Shown: positions 45,685-61,096 of the stretch, in pieces
Layout of the letters: each line of letters opens with the position of its first letter
How positions within the stretch are numbered: position 1 is the stretch's first letter
NCBI RefSeq assembly: GCF_000378305.1
Contig: NZ_KB899538.1
Coordinates: 1,210,001-1,274,000, forward strand
Length of the DNA stretch: 64,000 nt
DNA from: Thioalkalivibrio sp. ALJ12
GTDB lineage: Bacteria > Pseudomonadota > Gammaproteobacteria > Ectothiorhodospirales > Ectothiorhodospiraceae
Direction of reading: 5' to 3'
Notes under the pieces: model-generated
The model's database searches: none
Told to the model about the DNA's origin: nothing
The model's input: the letters and a program-made list of their open reading frames with translations, nothing else
Made by a program: the position numbers and the translations under genes

Positions 45685-45954
45685 ATGTCGCTCACTACCG
45701 AAGAAAAATCGGCCATCGTCGAGAAGCACAAGCGCGATGCCAACGACACCGGTTCGCCGGAAGTCCAGGTCGCGCTGCTCACGGCCCGCATCCAGCATCT
45801 GATGGGGCATTTTGAAAAGCACAAGCAGGACCACCACTCGCGTCGCGGGCTGCTGAAGATGGTCAGCCAGCGGCGCAAGCTGCTGACCTATCTCAAGCGT
45901 AATGACCAGGACCGCTATCAGGCCCTGGTTCAGGAGCTTGGCCTGCGCCGCTAA
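45685..45954 (+). CDS. rpsO: 30S ribosomal protein S15
   Basis: S15 (89 residues) binds the central domain of 16S rRNA. The family block [16 protein letters not shown] and [18 protein letters not shown] are present and the length is exactly typical. The upstream caggag (45669-45674) is the ribosome-binding site. In E. coli, S15 represses its own translation through an mRNA pseudoknot; whether the leader here can do this is not evident. Confidence 0.98.
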
Positions 45955-46079: not shown

Positions 46080-48167
46080 GTGGCACACAAGAAGTCGTTC
46101 CAGTACGGAAACCATACCGTCACCTTCGAGACCGGTGACATCGCCCGCCAGGCCAGTGGCGCCGTCCTCGTCAACATGGCCGAGACCGTGGTCCTGGTGA
46201 CCGCCGTCGCGCGCAAGGAGGCCGAGCCAGGTCGCGACTTCTTCCCGCTGACCGTGAATTATCAGGAACGGACCTACGCCGCCGGCAAGATCCCGGGTGG
46301 TTTCTTCAAGCGCGAAGGGCGTCCGAACGAAAAGGAAACGCTGACCTCGCGCCTGATTGATCGTCCGATCCGCCCGTTGTTCCCCGAGGGTTTCAAGAAC
46401 GAGACCCAGATCGTGGCCACGGTCATGTCGATCAACCCCGAAGTCGATCCCGATATCCCCGCCCTGCTGGGCGCCTCCGCCGCGCTGGCGCTGTCCGGTG
46501 TCCCGTTCGCGGGACCGATCGGGGCCGCGCGCGTCGGCTATCGTGCCGGTGAGTACCTGCTGAACCCGACCTACAGCGCCCTGGAAGACTCCGATCTCGA
46601 CCTGGTCGTGGCGGGCACGGAGCATGCCGTGTTGATGGTCGAATCGGAGGCCAGCGAGCTCTCCGAGGAGGCGATGCTGGGCGCGGTGATGTTCGGCCAC
46701 GAGCAGATGCAGGCCGCGATCCAGGCGATCAAGGAACTGGCGGCCGAGGCCGGGAAGCCGGCCTGGGACTGGCAGGCACCGCCGTCCGAGGCGTCGCTGG
46801 AAGACCGCGTCAAGGAGGCCGTGGGCAACGACCTCGTCGAGGCCTATCAGATCGCCGAGAAGCAGGCGCGTACCCAGCGCATTAGCGAGCTGCGCAGCCA
46901 GGCCGTCGACGCGATCGCCAGTGAAGACGAGTCCGGGCCGAGCGCGGAAGACGTGAAGACGGCATTCCACGATCTCGAGTACCGCCTGGTGCGCGACCGC
47001 ATTCTGGATGGCAATCCGCGTATCGACGGACGCGACAACAAGACCGTACGCCCGATCGGCGTCCAGACCAGCGTGCTTCCGCGTACGCACGGCTCGGCGG
47101 TGTTTACCCGCGGCGAGACTCAGGCGCTGGTCGTGGCCACGCTGGGCACGGATCGCGACGCCCAGGTGATCGATGCGATCGAGGGCGAGCGCCGTGACCG
47201 CTTCATGCTGCACTACAACTTCCCGCCCTATTGCACCGGCGAGACCGGTTTCGTTGGCTCGCCCAAGCGCCGCGAGATCGGGCATGGGCGCCTGGCCAAG
47301 CGTGGGGTGGCGGCCGTAATGCCGAAGGTCGAAGAGTTCCCCTATGTGGTGCGCGTGGTCTCCGAGATCACCGAGTCCAATGGGTCCAGCTCCATGGCGT
47401 CCGTTTGTGGTACCTCGCTGGCACTGATGGATGCGGGCGTGCCGCTGAAGGCCCCGGTCGCGGGGATCGCGATGGGCCTGATCAAGGAAGGCGAGCGCTT
47501 CGCCGTGCTGTCGGACATCTTGGGCGACGAGGATCACCTCGGCGACATGGACTTCAAGGTGGCCGGTACCACCAATGGTGTGACCGCGCTGCAGATGGAC
47601 ATCAAGATCGACGGGATTACCCGCGAGATCATGGAGCAGGCGCTGGCGCAGGCGCGCGAGGGCCGGATGCATATCCTCGGCTGCATGAACGAGGTGCTGC
47701 CGAGCCACCGCGAGGAGATGTCTTCGCACGCGCCGCGCTTCATCACCATGAAGATCAACCCGGACAAGATCCGCGACGTGATCGGCAAGGGCGGGGCGAC
47801 GATTCGTGCCCTGACCGAGGAGACCGGTGCGACGATCGACATCCAGGACGATGGCACGGTCAAGGTCGCCTCCACTGACCAGGCCGCCGGCCTCGAGGCC
47901 AAGCGCCGTATCGAGGAGCTGACCGCCGACATCGAGGTCGGCCGTCAGTACACCGGCAAGGTCGCGAAGATCATGGACTTCGGGGCGTTTGTCTCCATCC
48001 TGCCGGGCCGTGATGGCCTGGTGCACATCTCGCAGATCTCCGACGAGCGGGTGGAGAACGTGGCGGACTTCCTGTCCGAGGGCGACTCGGTCACCGTGAA
48101 GGTGCTGGAAGTAGACAAGCAGGGGCGCATCCGCCTGAGCATGAAAGCGGTCGAGTCCGAGGCCTGA
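46080..48167 (+). CDS. pnp: Polyribonucleotide nucleotidyltransferase (PNPase)
   Basis: PNPase (695 residues) degrades RNA phosphorolytically from the 3' end. It has two RNase PH-like domains (about 10-140 and 310-550) joined by a helical domain, then a KH domain ([20 protein letters not shown]) and an S1 domain ([20 protein letters not shown]). GTG 46080 is chosen since [13 protein letters not shown] then falls at the usual N-terminal distance; an in-frame ATG at 46050 would add ten residues. It lies 125 bp after rpsO, behind a hairpin. Confidence 0.97.
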
Positions 48168-55936: not shown

Positions 55937-57391
55937 ATGATCCCTGTCATTGCCCTGGTCGGCCGACCCAATGTCGGCAAGTCGACCCTGTTCAATCAGC
56001 TCACGCGCTCGCGTGATGCGCTGGTGGCCGATGTCGCCGGCCTGACCCGCGATCGCCAGTACGGCATCGGCAAGGTGGGCGACTTCCCCTACCTGGTGGT
56101 GGATACCGGTGGTCTGTCGGGCGAGGGTGCCGAGATGGACCGGGCGATGGCCGAGCAGACCCAGCGGGCCGTCGCGGAGGCGGACCATGTCCTGTTCCTG
56201 GTGGATGCGCGCGATGGCCTGACGCCGCAGGACCAGGCGATCGCCGACCAGTTGCGTTCGGCCGGGGTCAAGGCCCGGGTCGTGGTGAACAAGACCGACG
56301 GCCTGGATGCCGACGCCGTGAGCGCCGAGTTCTATACCCTGGGCATGGGCGAGATCACGTCGATTGCCGCAGCCCATGGTCGTGGCATCAAGGGCCTGAT
56401 GCAGAAGGTCCGGCGGGCCGTGGCCGCCGAGCGGCGCGAGGCCGAAGCAGCCGAGGGTGCAGCGGAGGAGGCCGCGGAGGACGGACTGGACGAGGCCTCG
56501 CAGCAGGCCGCGTTGGACGACTGGCCGGGCATCCGCGTGGCCATTGTCGGGCGCCCGAATGTCGGCAAATCCACGCTGGTCAATCGCATCCTCGGCGACG
56601 AGCGCGTGGTGGCCACGGATGTCGCCGGTACCACTCGTGATTCCATCTTTGTCCCGTTCTCGCGCGATGGGCAGGATTACACCCTGATCGATACGGCGGG
56701 GGTGCGGCGCCGGGCGCGTGTACACGAGGTCATCGAGAAGTTCAGCGTGATCAAGACGCTGCAGGCGATCGAGGCCGCGCATGTCGTGATCCTGGTGATG
56801 GATGCCCAGGCCGGGCTTTCGGAGCAGGATGCTCACCTGCTGGGCCTGGTGATCGACTCCGGACGCGCGCTGGTACTCGCGGTGAACAAGTGGGACGGCA
56901 TGGCGCCGGAGGAACGCGAGCGCGTGCGCGACGACCTGGATCGGCGCCTCGGCTTCGTCAATTTTGCCCGGCTGCGGCTGATCTCCGCCCTGCATGGCAC
57001 CAATGTGGGGCACCTGCTCGAAGATGTGCAGGAGGCCCATACCAGTGCGTTCGCCAAGGTCTCGACCCCCGAGCTGACCCGCTTGCTGGAGAGTGCCGTC
57101 GCCGAGCATGCTCCACCGCTGGTCAGCGGTCGCCGCATCAAGCTGCGCTACGCCCATCAGGGCGGGCAGAATCCCCCGGTCATCGTGATCCATGGCAACC
57201 AGACCGATGCCCTGCCGGGCAGCTACAAGCGCTTCCTGGAGAACTTCTTCCGCAAGCATCTGGGGCTGGTGGGTACACCGCTGCGCATGGAGTTTCGCTC
57301 GGGCCGCAACCCGTATGCCGGTCGCCGCAATACCCTCACGCCGCGCCAGCAGCGCAAACGAAAGCGCATGATGCGCCATGTCCGCCGCTGA
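55937..57391 (+). CDS. der: Ribosome biogenesis GTPase Der (EngA)
   Basis: Der (484 residues) has two tandem G domains, each with GRPNVGKST (G1 at 9-17 and 205-213), and a C-terminal KH-like domain (from about 375). It is needed for 50S subunit assembly. The linker between the G domains (about 165-197) is an unusually acidic Ala/Glu-rich segment. The product ends in a basic tail ([14 protein letters not shown]) typical of Der. The next gene overlaps by 14 bases. Confidence 0.97.
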
Positions 57392-58580
57392 TCAGAGCCG
57401 GGCATCACTGGAGGGGCCGAGTGCCCCTGCGCTGTCCGCGTTCGGCCGAGCGGTCGAGCCCTTCCGGGTGATGGATATCCTGGCGCGCGCCCAGGCGGCC
57501 GAGCGTGCCGGGCGCGATATCATCCACCTGGAGGTGGGTGAACCGGACTTTCCCACGCCCCCCGCGGTGCTGCGCGCCGGGGAGCTTGCGCTGGCGGCCG
57601 GGGATACCCGCTATACCCCGGCGCATGGTACCCGCGAGCTGCGCGAGGCCATCGCGGCCGACTACCGCCGTCGCCATCAGGCCGAGATCGACCCCGAGCG
57701 CGTCGTGATCACGGCGGGGGCCTCTGCCGCGATCCTGCTGGCGCTGGCCGCCGGAGTGAACCCCGGTGAGGAAGTGCTGCTCCCCGACCCGGGCTATGCC
57801 TGTAACCGTCAGTTTGTCGCGGCGCGCGGGGCGGTCCCGGTCGGGCTGCCGGTGGCCGCCAAGCACGCCTTCCAGCCGACTGCCGAGGCAGTAGCGCAGG
57901 CCTGGGGCGAGCGAACCCGGGCCATCCTGCTCGGTTCACCCGCGAATCCCACCGGTACCCGGTTGTCCGCCGATCGTCTGGCCGCCATCGTGGACGTCGT
58001 GCGCGCGCGGGGCGGTCTGGTAATCGTGGACGAGATCTATGGCCAGATCCTGTTCGACGAGCCGCAGCGCAGTGCCGCGGCCTTCCACCCCGATGTCATC
58101 GTGATCAACAGCTTTTCCAAGTACTTCGCGATGACCGGCTGGCGGCTGGGGTGGATGGTGGTCCCACAGATGTGGATCGACCCGGTTCGCAGGATCGCCC
58201 AGAACCTGTTCGTGGCCCCGGCCAGCATGGCGCAGACGGCCGCGGTCGAGGCCTTCGCCCCCGAGACCGAGGAGATCCTGCAACGCCAGGTGCGCGAACT
58301 GCAGACGCGGCGTGAGGTGCTGCTGGAGGCCCTGCCGGCGCTGGGCCTCGAGGTTCAGGCCCGCCCCGATGGGGCGTTCTACATCTACGCCGACTGCACG
58401 GCACACGGGGACGACTCCGAGGCGCTTTGCGCGCGCATCCTCGACGAGGCAGGCGTGGCCCTCACGCCCGGCACGGACTTCAGTCCCAGCGCTGGCCAGC
58501 GCTACCTGCGCATCGCCTACACCCAGCGCGAGTCACGCCTGCGCGAAGCACTGGACCGCCTCGCGTCGCTCCTCGCCTGA
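57378..58580 (+). CDS. PLP-dependent class I/II aminotransferase
   Basis: The 400-residue fold type I aminotransferase shows [11 protein letters not shown] (substrate/cofactor N-terminal motif), SPANPTG near 187-193, Asp218 in IVDEIYGQI, the PLP lysine K248 in [16 protein letters not shown], and a C-terminal Arg in YLRIAYT. It resembles aspartate or branched-chain/aromatic aminotransferases of the AspC/AlaA-like group, but the amino-group donor cannot be fixed from sequence. It starts within the der coding region (14-base overlap), so it is likely translated from the same mRNA. Confidence 0.92.
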
Positions 58581-58592
58581 CACTCACCTGTT

Positions 58593-59381
58593 TGAGGCTG
58601 GGCCTGGTTCGGCACCCGGTGTTTACGGTGGCTTCGTCTTGCCGCCTGCCAAGCGCTGTTTCGCCAGCGCACCCCGAGTTACTTCTTTGCTCGTGCAAAG
58701 AAGTACCCAAGAAACACGCCCGGGATTCGCCCGGGAACCTTGCTCCGGACGCGCCAGGCCGGCGGCGCTGAAACTCGCTATGCCTTTGGCTCCGCTCAGA
58801 CAGTCAGCGCCTTCTCCCGGCCTGTCACGCCCTCCACAAGGGGCTCATATCGGGAGGGAAGGTCAAAACAGGCGGTGTTCCCGCACCTGTCCTAAGCCCC
58901 GAGCTGTAGGGTGCGTTGAGCGCAGCGAAACGCACCGTTCCGACGCCGGAGAAACCCTGATGCGATTCGCTGCGCTCATCACATCCTACGATGGGGCCTG
59001 GCGCCCGCTCGCGGGCGCGGCACGCCAGGGCCGAAGGCCGCGCGTGCCCAGGATGTCGGAACACCTTGCCTCCAACCATTGGCACGAACGTCAGGACAGC
59101 CGTTGTTTTGACCTTATCCCCCCGTATGAAGCCCCTTGCGGAAGGGTGCTCGGGCCGGAAGAGAGGCGCTGACTGTCTGAGCGGAGCGTAGCGCAGCGAG
59201 TTTCAGCGCCGCCGGCCCGAGGGCCCTGGAGCAAGGTTCCCGGGCGGAATCCGGGTGCCCTTCTTTGGGTACTTTCTTGGGCAAGCAAGAAAGTACCTCG
59301 CGGCGCGCTCGCGAGTGAGCGCTTGGCAGGTGGCGGACCGAAGGCACGTAAACACCGGATAACGAACCAGGCCCAGCCTCA
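58593..59381. repeat. Long imperfect inverted repeat (two arms of about 288 bp) filling the gap between convergent genes
   Basis: The segments 58593-58880 and 59094-59381 are reverse complements of each other over their full length with scattered mismatches and small indels. For instance, tgaggctgggcctggttcg, ggtgtttacg, ctgccaagcgct, cccgggaaccttgctcc, ccggcggcgctgaaactcgc, tccgctcagacagtcagcgc and aaggtcaaaaca all recur in order in the complement. Each arm itself holds a small hairpin at matching positions (58681-58704: acttctttgc/gcaaagaagt; 59271-59294: actttcttg/caagaaagt). No convincing coding frame exists in either strand. The whole gap between the aminotransferase and the Na/Pi-type gene (58581-59425) is this element and its edges. 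The RNA from either strand would form one very long hairpin. Confidence 0.88.
58906..58989. repeat. Nested inverted repeat near the centre of the long palindrome
   Basis: 58906-58936 and 58958-58989 are imperfect reverse complements: the forward arm reads gtagggtgcgttgagcgcag and onward, and the reverse complement of the second reads gtaggatgtgatgagcgcag and onward. Both have the core gagcgcagcga, with about 26 of 31 positions matching. A third GC-rich hairpin (gcgcccgctcgcgggcgc, 59002-59019) follows in the same central region. The centre thus contains a second, different repeat unit. Confidence 0.8.
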
Positions 59382-59425
59382 GGGCGCGGGGCAACAAGCT
59401 TCGCCGTCTGATCAGGAATATAGCG

Positions 59426-61096
59426 TTAAGACTTGGTGGAGGCGGTGGCGGGGTCGGCCTCGTAGGAGGCCCCCACCGGCGGCGTCAGGAGCAGCGCATA
59501 GCGGCGCAAGACCCAGATGCCCCGCTCGAACAGGCTAGTCGCGCCGAACACCGCTTCGCGTACGCTGCCGTCGAGATCACTGGAGGCGAGTAGGCGGCGA
59601 CGGATGGAATCCATCAGCTCTGAGCGATCATGGGTCAGGGACTGCAGCAGGGCGATGTCGTCGGCATCCCCGCTGCGCGCCGCGTCGGTCAGCGTCAGCA
59701 GCATCATGTGCAGGGTCTCGACCAGGTTGTGGGTCAGGGCGCGGGCTTCGGCGGAGGCGTCGGCATTGAGCGAGCGCTCGATCTCCGTGGCGAGGTCGTT
59801 CAGCGTATCTTCCAGCTGCAGCAGCAGCTGATTGCGGTTCTTCAGCACGATCGCATGATCGAGGGTGGCCCCGCTCAGGGCACCGGAAAGGATCTCGTCG
59901 AGAAATTGCTCGATTGCCTCGGTGACCTGCAGGTTGCCGCGGTGCAGGGCCAGGCGCTCGTGGTGGGCACCGTCGCTGTCATCGCGCACGCTTTCGAGGT
60001 AGTCGGGCAGTCGCTTGAGCAGGCGCAACTGTTCCTTTTCCACCAGCACCAGCGCGGACCCGGCGTCGTTCTGTGCCCCGGCGTAGATGAAATGCGGCTT
60101 GCCCAGGGCCTCTTCCTCGGTTGGCGGTGCGGTGCGCTCCAGGAAGCGCGCGACGGGGCCGTGCACCGGGTGCATCGCCAGGTCGCAGACGACCTGGTAG
60201 AGGATGTAGGCCAGCGCGATCTGCAGGCTGATGCCGATCGCGAGCGCTTCCAGGCCCGAGGCGATCAGCGGGACGCCGCCGTAGAACTCGATCCAGAACA
60301 GCGGCAGCAGGAGGATCAGACCCAGTCCCTTCAGGATGAACTGATAAAGCGCCAGCTGGCGGCCCAGTCCCTTGTGCGAGGCGGCGAGGATCAGGGTCGA
60401 CACACCGGTGCCGAAGCTCGCCCCGTAGACGACCATCAGGCCGTATTCGAGATCGATCACGCCGCTGGCGGCCAGGGCCATCGTCACGATGGTGATACTG
60501 GAGGCCGAATGCGCGATCACCGCAAACACCAGGCCGGTGGCGAATGCGATCAGCAAGGACTGCGCCGACAGCGACATCAGGCCGGTCATCCAGGTCAGCT
60601 CGCTGAGCGGTTTGGCGCCTTCCTTGATGAACATCAGCCCGAGGAACAGCAGGCCAATGCCGAGCATGGCTCGGATCAGGTGGCGCAGGCGTGCGGACTG
60701 GTCGCGGTCGAAGTAGAACAGCAGCCCCGTAACGCCGACCAGGATGAAGACCATCAGGGTCAGGTCGAGCGCGGCGATCAGGACCAGCAGCGAGGTGCCC
60801 AGGTTGGCGTAGTTGATCACCGGCTGGGCACGGCGGGCGTCGAGTACGCCGGCGGTGACCAGCGAGATCAGCACAAAGATGACCGCGTGGATGCTTTGTG
60901 TAATCGCCCCGCCGACTAGGCCGAGGAACGCGGCCGCCCGGTTGGAGCCCGTGGCGCGCCCGACCAGTGCCCGCAGGCGCTGGTCCGCGAGCTGGCGCAG
61001 GTGCTCGCTGATCAGGCGAATGCCGACGAAGAACAGGCCGAGCCCGGCAAACAGCGTCGCCGCGATCTCGAAGGTGATCATCCACTCGCCATTCAT
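59426..61096 (-). CDS. Na/Pi cotransporter family protein with C-terminal PhoU-like domain
   Basis: The 556-residue protein has about nine membrane segments with the NptA-like duplicated pattern (first repeat around GLFFVGIRLISEHLRQLADQ and GAITQSIHAVIFV, second around FAVIAHSASSITIVTMAL). A cytoplasmic helical domain of PhoU type spans about 345-535. The family is thought to transport phosphate with sodium, and some members (YjbB) export it. The short GxxTQS and HSASS signatures are clear, although NptA uses QSSSA-type motifs. It is convergent with the aminotransferase across the palindrome. Confidence 0.85.
   Translation of the reverse strand: MNGEWMITFEIAATLFAGLGLFFVGIRLISEHLRQLADQRLRALVGRATGSNRAAAFLGLVGGAITQSIHAVIFVLISLVTAGVLDARRAQPVINYANLGTSLLVLIAALDLTLMVFILVGVTGLLFYFDRDQSARLRHLIRAMLGIGLLFLGLMFIKEGAKPLSELTWMTGLMSLSAQSLLIAFATGLVFAVIAHSASSITIVTMALAASGVIDLEYGLMVVYGASFGTGVSTLILAASHKGLGRQLALYQFILKGLGLILLLPLFWIEFYGGVPLIASGLEALAIGISLQIALAYILYQVVCDLAMHPVHGPVARFLERTAPPTEEEALGKPHFIYAGAQNDAGSALVLVEKEQLRLLKRLPDYLESVRDDSDGAHHERLALHRGNLQVTEAIEQFLDEILSGALSGATLDHAIVLKNRNQLLLQLEDTLNDLATEIERSLNADASAEARALTHNLVETLHMMLLTLTDAARSGDADDIALLQSLTHDRSELMDSIRRRLLASSDLDGSVREAVFGATSLFERGIWVLRRYALLLTPPVGASYEADPATASTKS

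Follow-up and report, generated by a model that had tools for sequence, protein, structure and literature searches.

What is the long, nested inverted repeat that occupies the gap between two convergent genes of Thioalkalivibrio sp. ALJ12, and what could maintain such a structure there? The locus lies in a 64-kb window (the whole stretch of DNA analyzed, 64,000 nucleotides), for which an initial annotation, made from the letters alone, had described a nested palindrome between convergent genes. Inverted-repeat comparison within the window bears this out: positions 58593-59381 form a 789-bp nested palindrome, located 12 nt from the end of a class I/II aminotransferase gene on the plus strand (57378-58580) and 44 nt from the end of a gene of the Na+/Pi cotransporter family on the minus strand (59426-61096). 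We identify this palindrome firmly as one of 16 copies, in its own genome, of a dispersed structured repeat with a REPIN. With about even confidence, we further propose that it could serve as a double-sided 3'-end or insulator element between convergent genes, maintained by recombination, the role in transcription being putative.

Anatomy of the element

The two arms, 58593-58870 on the plus strand (the 'ACTTCTTTG' type) and 59104-59381 on the minus strand (the 'ACTTTCTTG' type), are identical as inverted copies at 223 of 282 aligned columns (79%; E ~4e-59 in the 64-kb window), so that the imperfect reverse complementarity noted earlier stands, with an arm length of ~278 bp in place of the ~288 bp first given. 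Beyond its outer segment, each arm carries, in this order, hairpins A and B, the GC hairpin D, and the long hairpin C. In the left arm, all on the plus strand, these are hairpin A at 58653-58670 (GCGCTG..CAGCGC, coordinates by eye), B at 58680-58705, D at 58719-58735 (CCCGGG..CCCGGG), and C at 58743-58834, the last matched by covariance model R1 (C1:1268743-1268834). In the right arm, on the minus strand, hairpin C lies at 59141-59231 (R1, C1:1269141-1269231), B at 59268-59297, with the same pairing as in the left arm and the bases exchanged, and A at 59305-59322 (GCGCTC..GAGCGC, coordinates by eye). The small internal hairpins at matching places are thus real, the two copies of hairpin B among them, as is the second inverted repeat reported in the center, at 58906-58989, which was recovered at 86% over 29 nt in one comparison and at 74% over 87 columns in another. 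An asymmetric center at 58997-59052 (plus strand) contains two adjacent hairpins closed by CCTGG/CCAGG, delineated by eye and from the RNA fold. Folded as RNA, the whole element reaches -576.8 kcal/mol (z -26.3, equaled by 0 of 20 shuffles), and the left arm alone gains only moderately over its shuffles (z -2.43, with 1 of the 200 equaling it).

Three ORFs of at least 80 aa reach into the element (286, 114, and 86 aa). The 286-aa and 86-aa ORFs matched no Pfam family at E ≤ 0.01, in agreement with the earlier view that there is no credible gene, and a protein-coding role was rejected on these two of the three. A known RNA family was likewise rejected, the Rfam covariance models yielding no match to the element at E ≤ 1. 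A terminator scan returned three weak sites, all on the minus strand and none on the plus strand, against an expectation of 1.0 (sd 1.2), and a scan of 58400-59600 for sigma-70-like promoters found no site.

A family of paired arms with a central REPIN

The genome that contains the window (G000; 2.78 Mb in 6 contigs) carries the element at 16 places, and the copies whose two ends could be located measure 704 to 900 bp. Model R1, which describes one arm hairpin and was built on an RNAalifold structure of only 14 pairs (3 with double changes by RNAalifold's count), produced 32 matches in this genome at E ≤ 1 when 150 of 5140 first-look candidates were scored, two per copy and 32 of 32 head-to-head. 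In three close relatives, it produced 22, 17, and 20 matches, corresponding to 11 pairs, to 8 pairs and a further copy in which the partner arm is damaged, and to 10 pairs, respectively. Matches to the element at E ≤ 0.001 were detected in 21 of 58 genomes (its own and 57 relatives; the best 8 candidates per genome scored), among which G008, G030, G031, G034, and G036 have weak matches only (E 3e-4 to 8.5e-9). With stricter filters, a class-wide sample gave matches at E ≤ 0.001 in 8 of 369 genomes, 6 of them outside the genus. Of 15 matches fetched from those 6 genomes, 4 are part of continuous palindromes (374 to 706 bp), 3 of which (L086, L091, L105) are located between convergent genes, as called with the codon model of the ALJ12 genome, which gave no genes at several loci. 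Overall, 62 copies were compared, 16 from the own genome and 46 from relatives, the first 40 of the latter coming from 9 genomes.

In 12 of 56 copies (L003, L014, L042, L043, L054, L065, L066, L071, L074, L075, L078, and L079), an arm's outermost 54 to 60 bp recurs beside that arm as a tandem partial unit. At L015 and L014, the flanks just outside the element are, by eye, inverted repeats (~33 bp at L015, shorter at L014). A portion of the L015 flank is also similar to the right flank of L017, as though the element had a further outer layer.

The arms fall into two dissimilar types that differ mainly in hairpins B and C and at the inner end, the outer segment and hairpin A not being type-specific; by eye, hairpin C has three outer-stem types of different sequence. 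One arm of each type is present in 52 of 53 copies, and two arms of one type in the remaining one. Since all 32 arm hairpins of the own genome are paired and nearly every copy combines both types, the pair is the unit. Of the earlier suggestion of dispersed repeats inserted head-to-head, the dispersed family therefore holds, and independent insertion of the arms is not supported. Homogenization of the arms within a copy was also rejected, given that the two arms of one copy are 68.8% alike (52 copies), compared with 69.2% for opposite-type arms of different copies in the same genome (439 pairs).

Covariation was counted on 17 arm representatives below 90% identity. The arm alignment comprised the 109 arms with matches to more than 240 positions of the model; columns gapped in at least 60% of rows were dropped, and the arm sequences read from this trimmed alignment accordingly lack some inserted bases. 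The 42 proposed pairs, arranged in helix 1 (hairpin A), helix 2 (B), helix 3 (D), and helices 4 and 5 (C), are standard in 93.0% of cells, compared with 84.3% in shuffles, and 63 cells are changed on both sides, compared with 24.2 in shuffles and 3 to 16 in slid-partner controls. Two of the five measures do not stand out, namely how many pairs show any double change (12 versus 9.2 in shuffles; 17 of 500 shuffles as high) and how many further pair types occur (19 versus 20.6; 465 of 500 as high), and helix D and the inner stem of hairpin C show no double change. The double changes come from a small number of alternative stem types in a single genus. Compensatory changes agree with the initial remark that the small hairpins are kept despite mismatches.

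These data bear on two alternatives. A one-off inverted duplication without function, which the initial annotation expected to appear as arms found only here and lacking covariation, has nothing to recommend it beyond the arms themselves; the opposite was found on both counts, and the 16 copies, the conserved arm types, and the covarying hairpins refute it, leaving it next to no probability. A trans-acting structured non-coding RNA would account for the covarying hairpins; the lack of an Rfam match and of a promoter site, at the thresholds and over the interval given above, and the closeness of the element to stop codons, which speaks for transcription from the neighboring genes, make it very unlikely.

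The core at 58906-58989 is a REPIN, a known kind of mobile repeat that consists of a pair of GTAG-tagged REPs. The GTAG tag followed by an imperfect hairpin is present in 58906-58936 and in the complement of 58961-58989. Elsewhere in the same genome, a Y1_Tnp match (C3:45961-46299) is flanked by core-like REPs at 45768-45801 (91% identity) and 46401-46432 (94%); the protein is a RAYT (NF047646, E 6e-63), encoded by a 184-aa gene (L040:1339-1893) with REPs on both sides. The REP pair in the core, together with a RAYT gene flanked by similar REPs, identifies the core as a REPIN, and the core motif that the initial annotation likened to intergenic repeats of other proteobacteria is a REP pair, an already described type of element. 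The genome contains two more Y1 transposase matches, L038 and L039, the latter broken by a stop.

A REPIN with one plus and one minus REP is present in 15 of 16 own copies and in 28 of 40 copies from relatives, the arms occurring without it in 1 and 12 copies, respectively. Centers of 157 to 160 bp characterize L013, L055, and L063, as well as the ten copies from G022, G023, G025, G026, and G004; in the remaining copies except L047 (1,430 bp), the center spans 209 to 238 bp, with one REP in each orientation. In L047, from the relative G029, a gene for an IS110-family transposase (L047:2411-3403) is located at one REP of the REPIN, with the junction placed by eye; REPs are described as targets of the IS110 family (PMC1525189). 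The element as a whole is not a REPs-only unit of ~100 bp, as the arms persist without REPs. RAYT mobility of the whole element is disfavored because copies without the REPIN exist, and most simply, the REPIN entered an older element.

Sites, apparent exchange of content, and length states

Of the 16 own copies, 14 are located between convergent and 2 between tandem genes, with none between divergent genes. This excess is strong because only 45 of 342 neighboring gene pairs (13%) are convergent in 464 kb of the own genome (20 stretches of 20 kb plus the window); the binomial p is 4e-11, or 1.6e-10 when only gaps of at least 40 nt are counted. In the set of 40 copies fetched from nine relatives, convergent sites number 24 and tandem ones 14, the other 2 copies being at contig ends and none at a divergent site; 6 further copies were left out of these orientation counts. 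Gene orientation was taken from a codon-score ORF caller, and some of the relatives' tandem calls, as well as the convergent call at L013, involve gaps of ~1 kb that may hide missed genes. A similar, less pronounced bias is seen for lone REPs in the own genome (10 of 19 convergent, 9 of 19 tandem, none divergent), and a published survey places REPs mainly between convergent and unidirectional genes (PMC3733652). Given that lone REPs also avoid divergent sites, the convergent-site bias of the element may be a general tolerance.

Convergent placement and a palindrome at the DNA level are also what would be expected of a chromosome-level DNA element, that is, cruciform or hairpin DNA putatively bound by nucleoid proteins or topoisomerases that absorbs positive supercoils between convergent genes, and one paper links REPs to supercoiling between convergent genes (PMC1525189). 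The covariation of the small stems fits DNA hairpins and RNA equally, and sequence cannot separate the two; we consider this reading rather improbable.

Flanking sequences sort the 62 copies into loci common to several species, one of which is occupied in six genomes. The gene on the left side of the element in the window has orthologs at 28 loci read, of which 5 carry arms (G000, G029, G001, G005 with a swapped flank, and G021 at a contig end). The gene pair that flanks the element in the window is present without arms in G011, G025, and G019, with a gap of ~428 bp in G019. At the other 20 loci, there are no arms, and the partner gene is different, undetected, or missing.

Copies at orthologous loci have a mean identity of 82.0% (37 pairs, 70.6 to 97.3), compared with 81.1% between different loci of one genome (162 pairs) and 80.7% for all others (467 pairs), in a comparison of 37 copies at loci shared among G000, G029, G001, and G005 that omitted L044, L047, and L285, which are broken, truncated, or interrupted. 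The flanks of three loci are 85 to 98% identical among G001, G005, G021, and G029. The same locus can carry a REPIN in one species and lack it in another (L010 versus L063, L055, L074, and L080; L013 versus L045). Since orthologous copies are hardly more alike than non-orthologous ones and the REPIN varies at the same locus, the content of copies seems to have been exchanged by recombination; faster evolution of non-coding DNA than of the coding flanks may offer an alternative. In G005, the flanks of L001 and L003 are swapped reciprocally, as an inversion between both copies would give, and L067 of G002 combines one flank from the L003 locus with another from the L005 locus; both cases come from draft assemblies, where an error is possible. 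The flank grouping of the 62 copies contains further groups with more than one partner.

Occupied sites also differ in length. At the L017 locus, the element measures ~880 bp in the own genome, 134 bp in G001, 132 bp in G005, and 15 bp, made from the two ends, in G029, and one arm is present at a contig end in G021; the 134- and 132-bp palindromes consist of the outer segments with one hairpin A as the center. The L007 locus is full length in the own genome, G022, G026, G002, and apparently G021 (at a contig edge), and ~90 bp long in G029 and G001, while G005 has the left gene and neither arms nor the right flank. Similarly, at the L012 locus, G029 retains the left flank and neither arms nor the right flank. 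At L007, the full length of the element in the more distant relatives favors contraction as the likely direction of change. A search of the own genome for separate short forms, with 40 of 42 candidates scored, found none: of 57 matches to the 134-bp form, 53 lie inside the 16 copies, and the other 4 are weak, with E ≥ 0.03.

A non-autonomous, MITE-like transposon, whose arms would be long terminal inverted repeats and which a transposase encoded elsewhere would move into terminators or convergent intergenic sites, could account for the two arms and defined ends of most copies, for the armless gene pairs in G011, G025, and G019, and for the L017 site in G029, which has both flanks with only ~20 nt between them. 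However, visual inspection revealed no target-site duplication at the 15 own copies (of 16) for which both ends are known, although old copies may have lost theirs; many sites are common to several species, and no partner transposon is known from searches that used only the element itself as query. The usual terminal repeats, moreover, are unlike arms of ~280 bp with internal hairpins. Transposition of this kind is possible, and we consider it unlikely.

Under the proposed double-sided 3'-end or insulator role, transcripts from either side would run into the hairpin ladder, and the element would be kept at convergent sites by selection or tolerance. Several small hairpins are nearly self-complementary, and their mirror copies are therefore also direct repeats; hairpin A, in particular, is nearly its own reverse complement, so that its mirror copy in the other arm would act as a direct repeat as well. 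Recombination or slippage between mirrored small hairpins could then shorten the element symmetrically, deletion between the two copies of hairpin A presumably yielding the 134-bp form. By recombining with other full copies, the element would exchange content, and short forms could be re-expanded in this way. Such upkeep would require no transposase of the element's own, and the REPIN would be a passenger moved by the RAYT system. More tentatively, host recombination alone might explain both spread and persistence: short 3'-end palindromes would serve as landing pads into which full copies are pasted by homologous recombination through shared ends, followed by symmetric collapse back to pads, so that a site would cycle through 15, ~134, and ~880 bp while remaining occupied.

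Long palindromes are generally regarded as unstable in bacteria. Despite this presumed instability, 16 members of the family, ~700 to 900 bp long, coexist in one genome, and comparison of individual sites between relatives reveals short forms, rearrangement junctions, and apparent exchange of content at sites that stay occupied. These features make the family a natural test of large-palindrome survival in bacterial chromosomes. The upkeep of palindromes, the hitch-hiking of REPINs, and the role of convergent 3' ends thus become testable in one bacterial group.

Relation to other palindromic repeats

A scan for the apex motif, with one genome per species, identified at least 119 stretches in many proteobacteria and some other phyla, 80 loci being listed, and among these 80 loci, at least 22 matches at 17 loci are in palindromes that span at least 250 bp. 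Among the listed matches with a classed gene pair, 39 of 66 are tandem, 21 convergent, and 6 divergent; with tandem sites outnumbering convergent ones, convergence is no rule outside the genus. Eight of the listed loci (L115, L116, L126, L157, L161, L170, L176, and L179), from Luteimonas, Stenotrophomonas, Polaromonas, and Herminiimonas contigs, carry the RAACTCGCTNCGCTCAGACA hairpin in nested palindromes of ~500 to 640 bp, four of them (L115, L126, L161, and L179) at convergent and four at tandem sites. These palindromes have the same hairpin apex as the element, and the likeness is established for the apex hairpin alone; the motif strands occur in the opposite order in L115 and L157, both from Luteimonas. 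There may thus be a wider class of such palindromes. Among the listed matches, the 20-base apex motif was also observed in contigs labeled Bacteroidota, Firmicutes, and Fusobacterium (L112, L113, L122, L130, L132, L147, and others), and at L122, L130, and L156, it is contained in palindromes of ~200 bp on contigs labeled as those phyla.

Like the element, ERIC and NEMIS repeats are non-coding, palindromic, intergenic, and multi-copy; compared with both as generally described, the element is much longer and has two dissimilar arms and short palindromic states at the same site. Text and sequence-string searches of the literature did not retrieve a description of this repeat family, the relevant papers, in the portions consulted, dealing with REPs, insertion sequences, and stem-loops (PMC3733652, PMC3116915, PMC1525189, PMC2267715, PMC2817692). 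One of them names ERIC and NEMIS among structured interspersed repeats (PMC3733652).

The closest parallels are provided by REP systems. As in the described REPIN/RAYT systems (PMC3116915, PMC3733652, PMC2817692), the core of the element is a pair of GTAG-tagged REPs, and the genome has a RAYT beside similar REPs; in contrast, the ~280-bp arms are the larger part of the element here and exist without the REPIN. REP dimers inserted in longer palindromes have been reported in A. variabilis, T. roseum, and H. neapolitanus, and these share with the element a REP dimer at the center of a palindrome (PMC3733652). Those palindromes, however, are short, with a length of 41 bp in H. neapolitanus, and no REP-free version was found in A. 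variabilis or H. neapolitanus (PMC3733652), whereas the element described here measures ~700 bp without its REPIN and clearly exists in that form.
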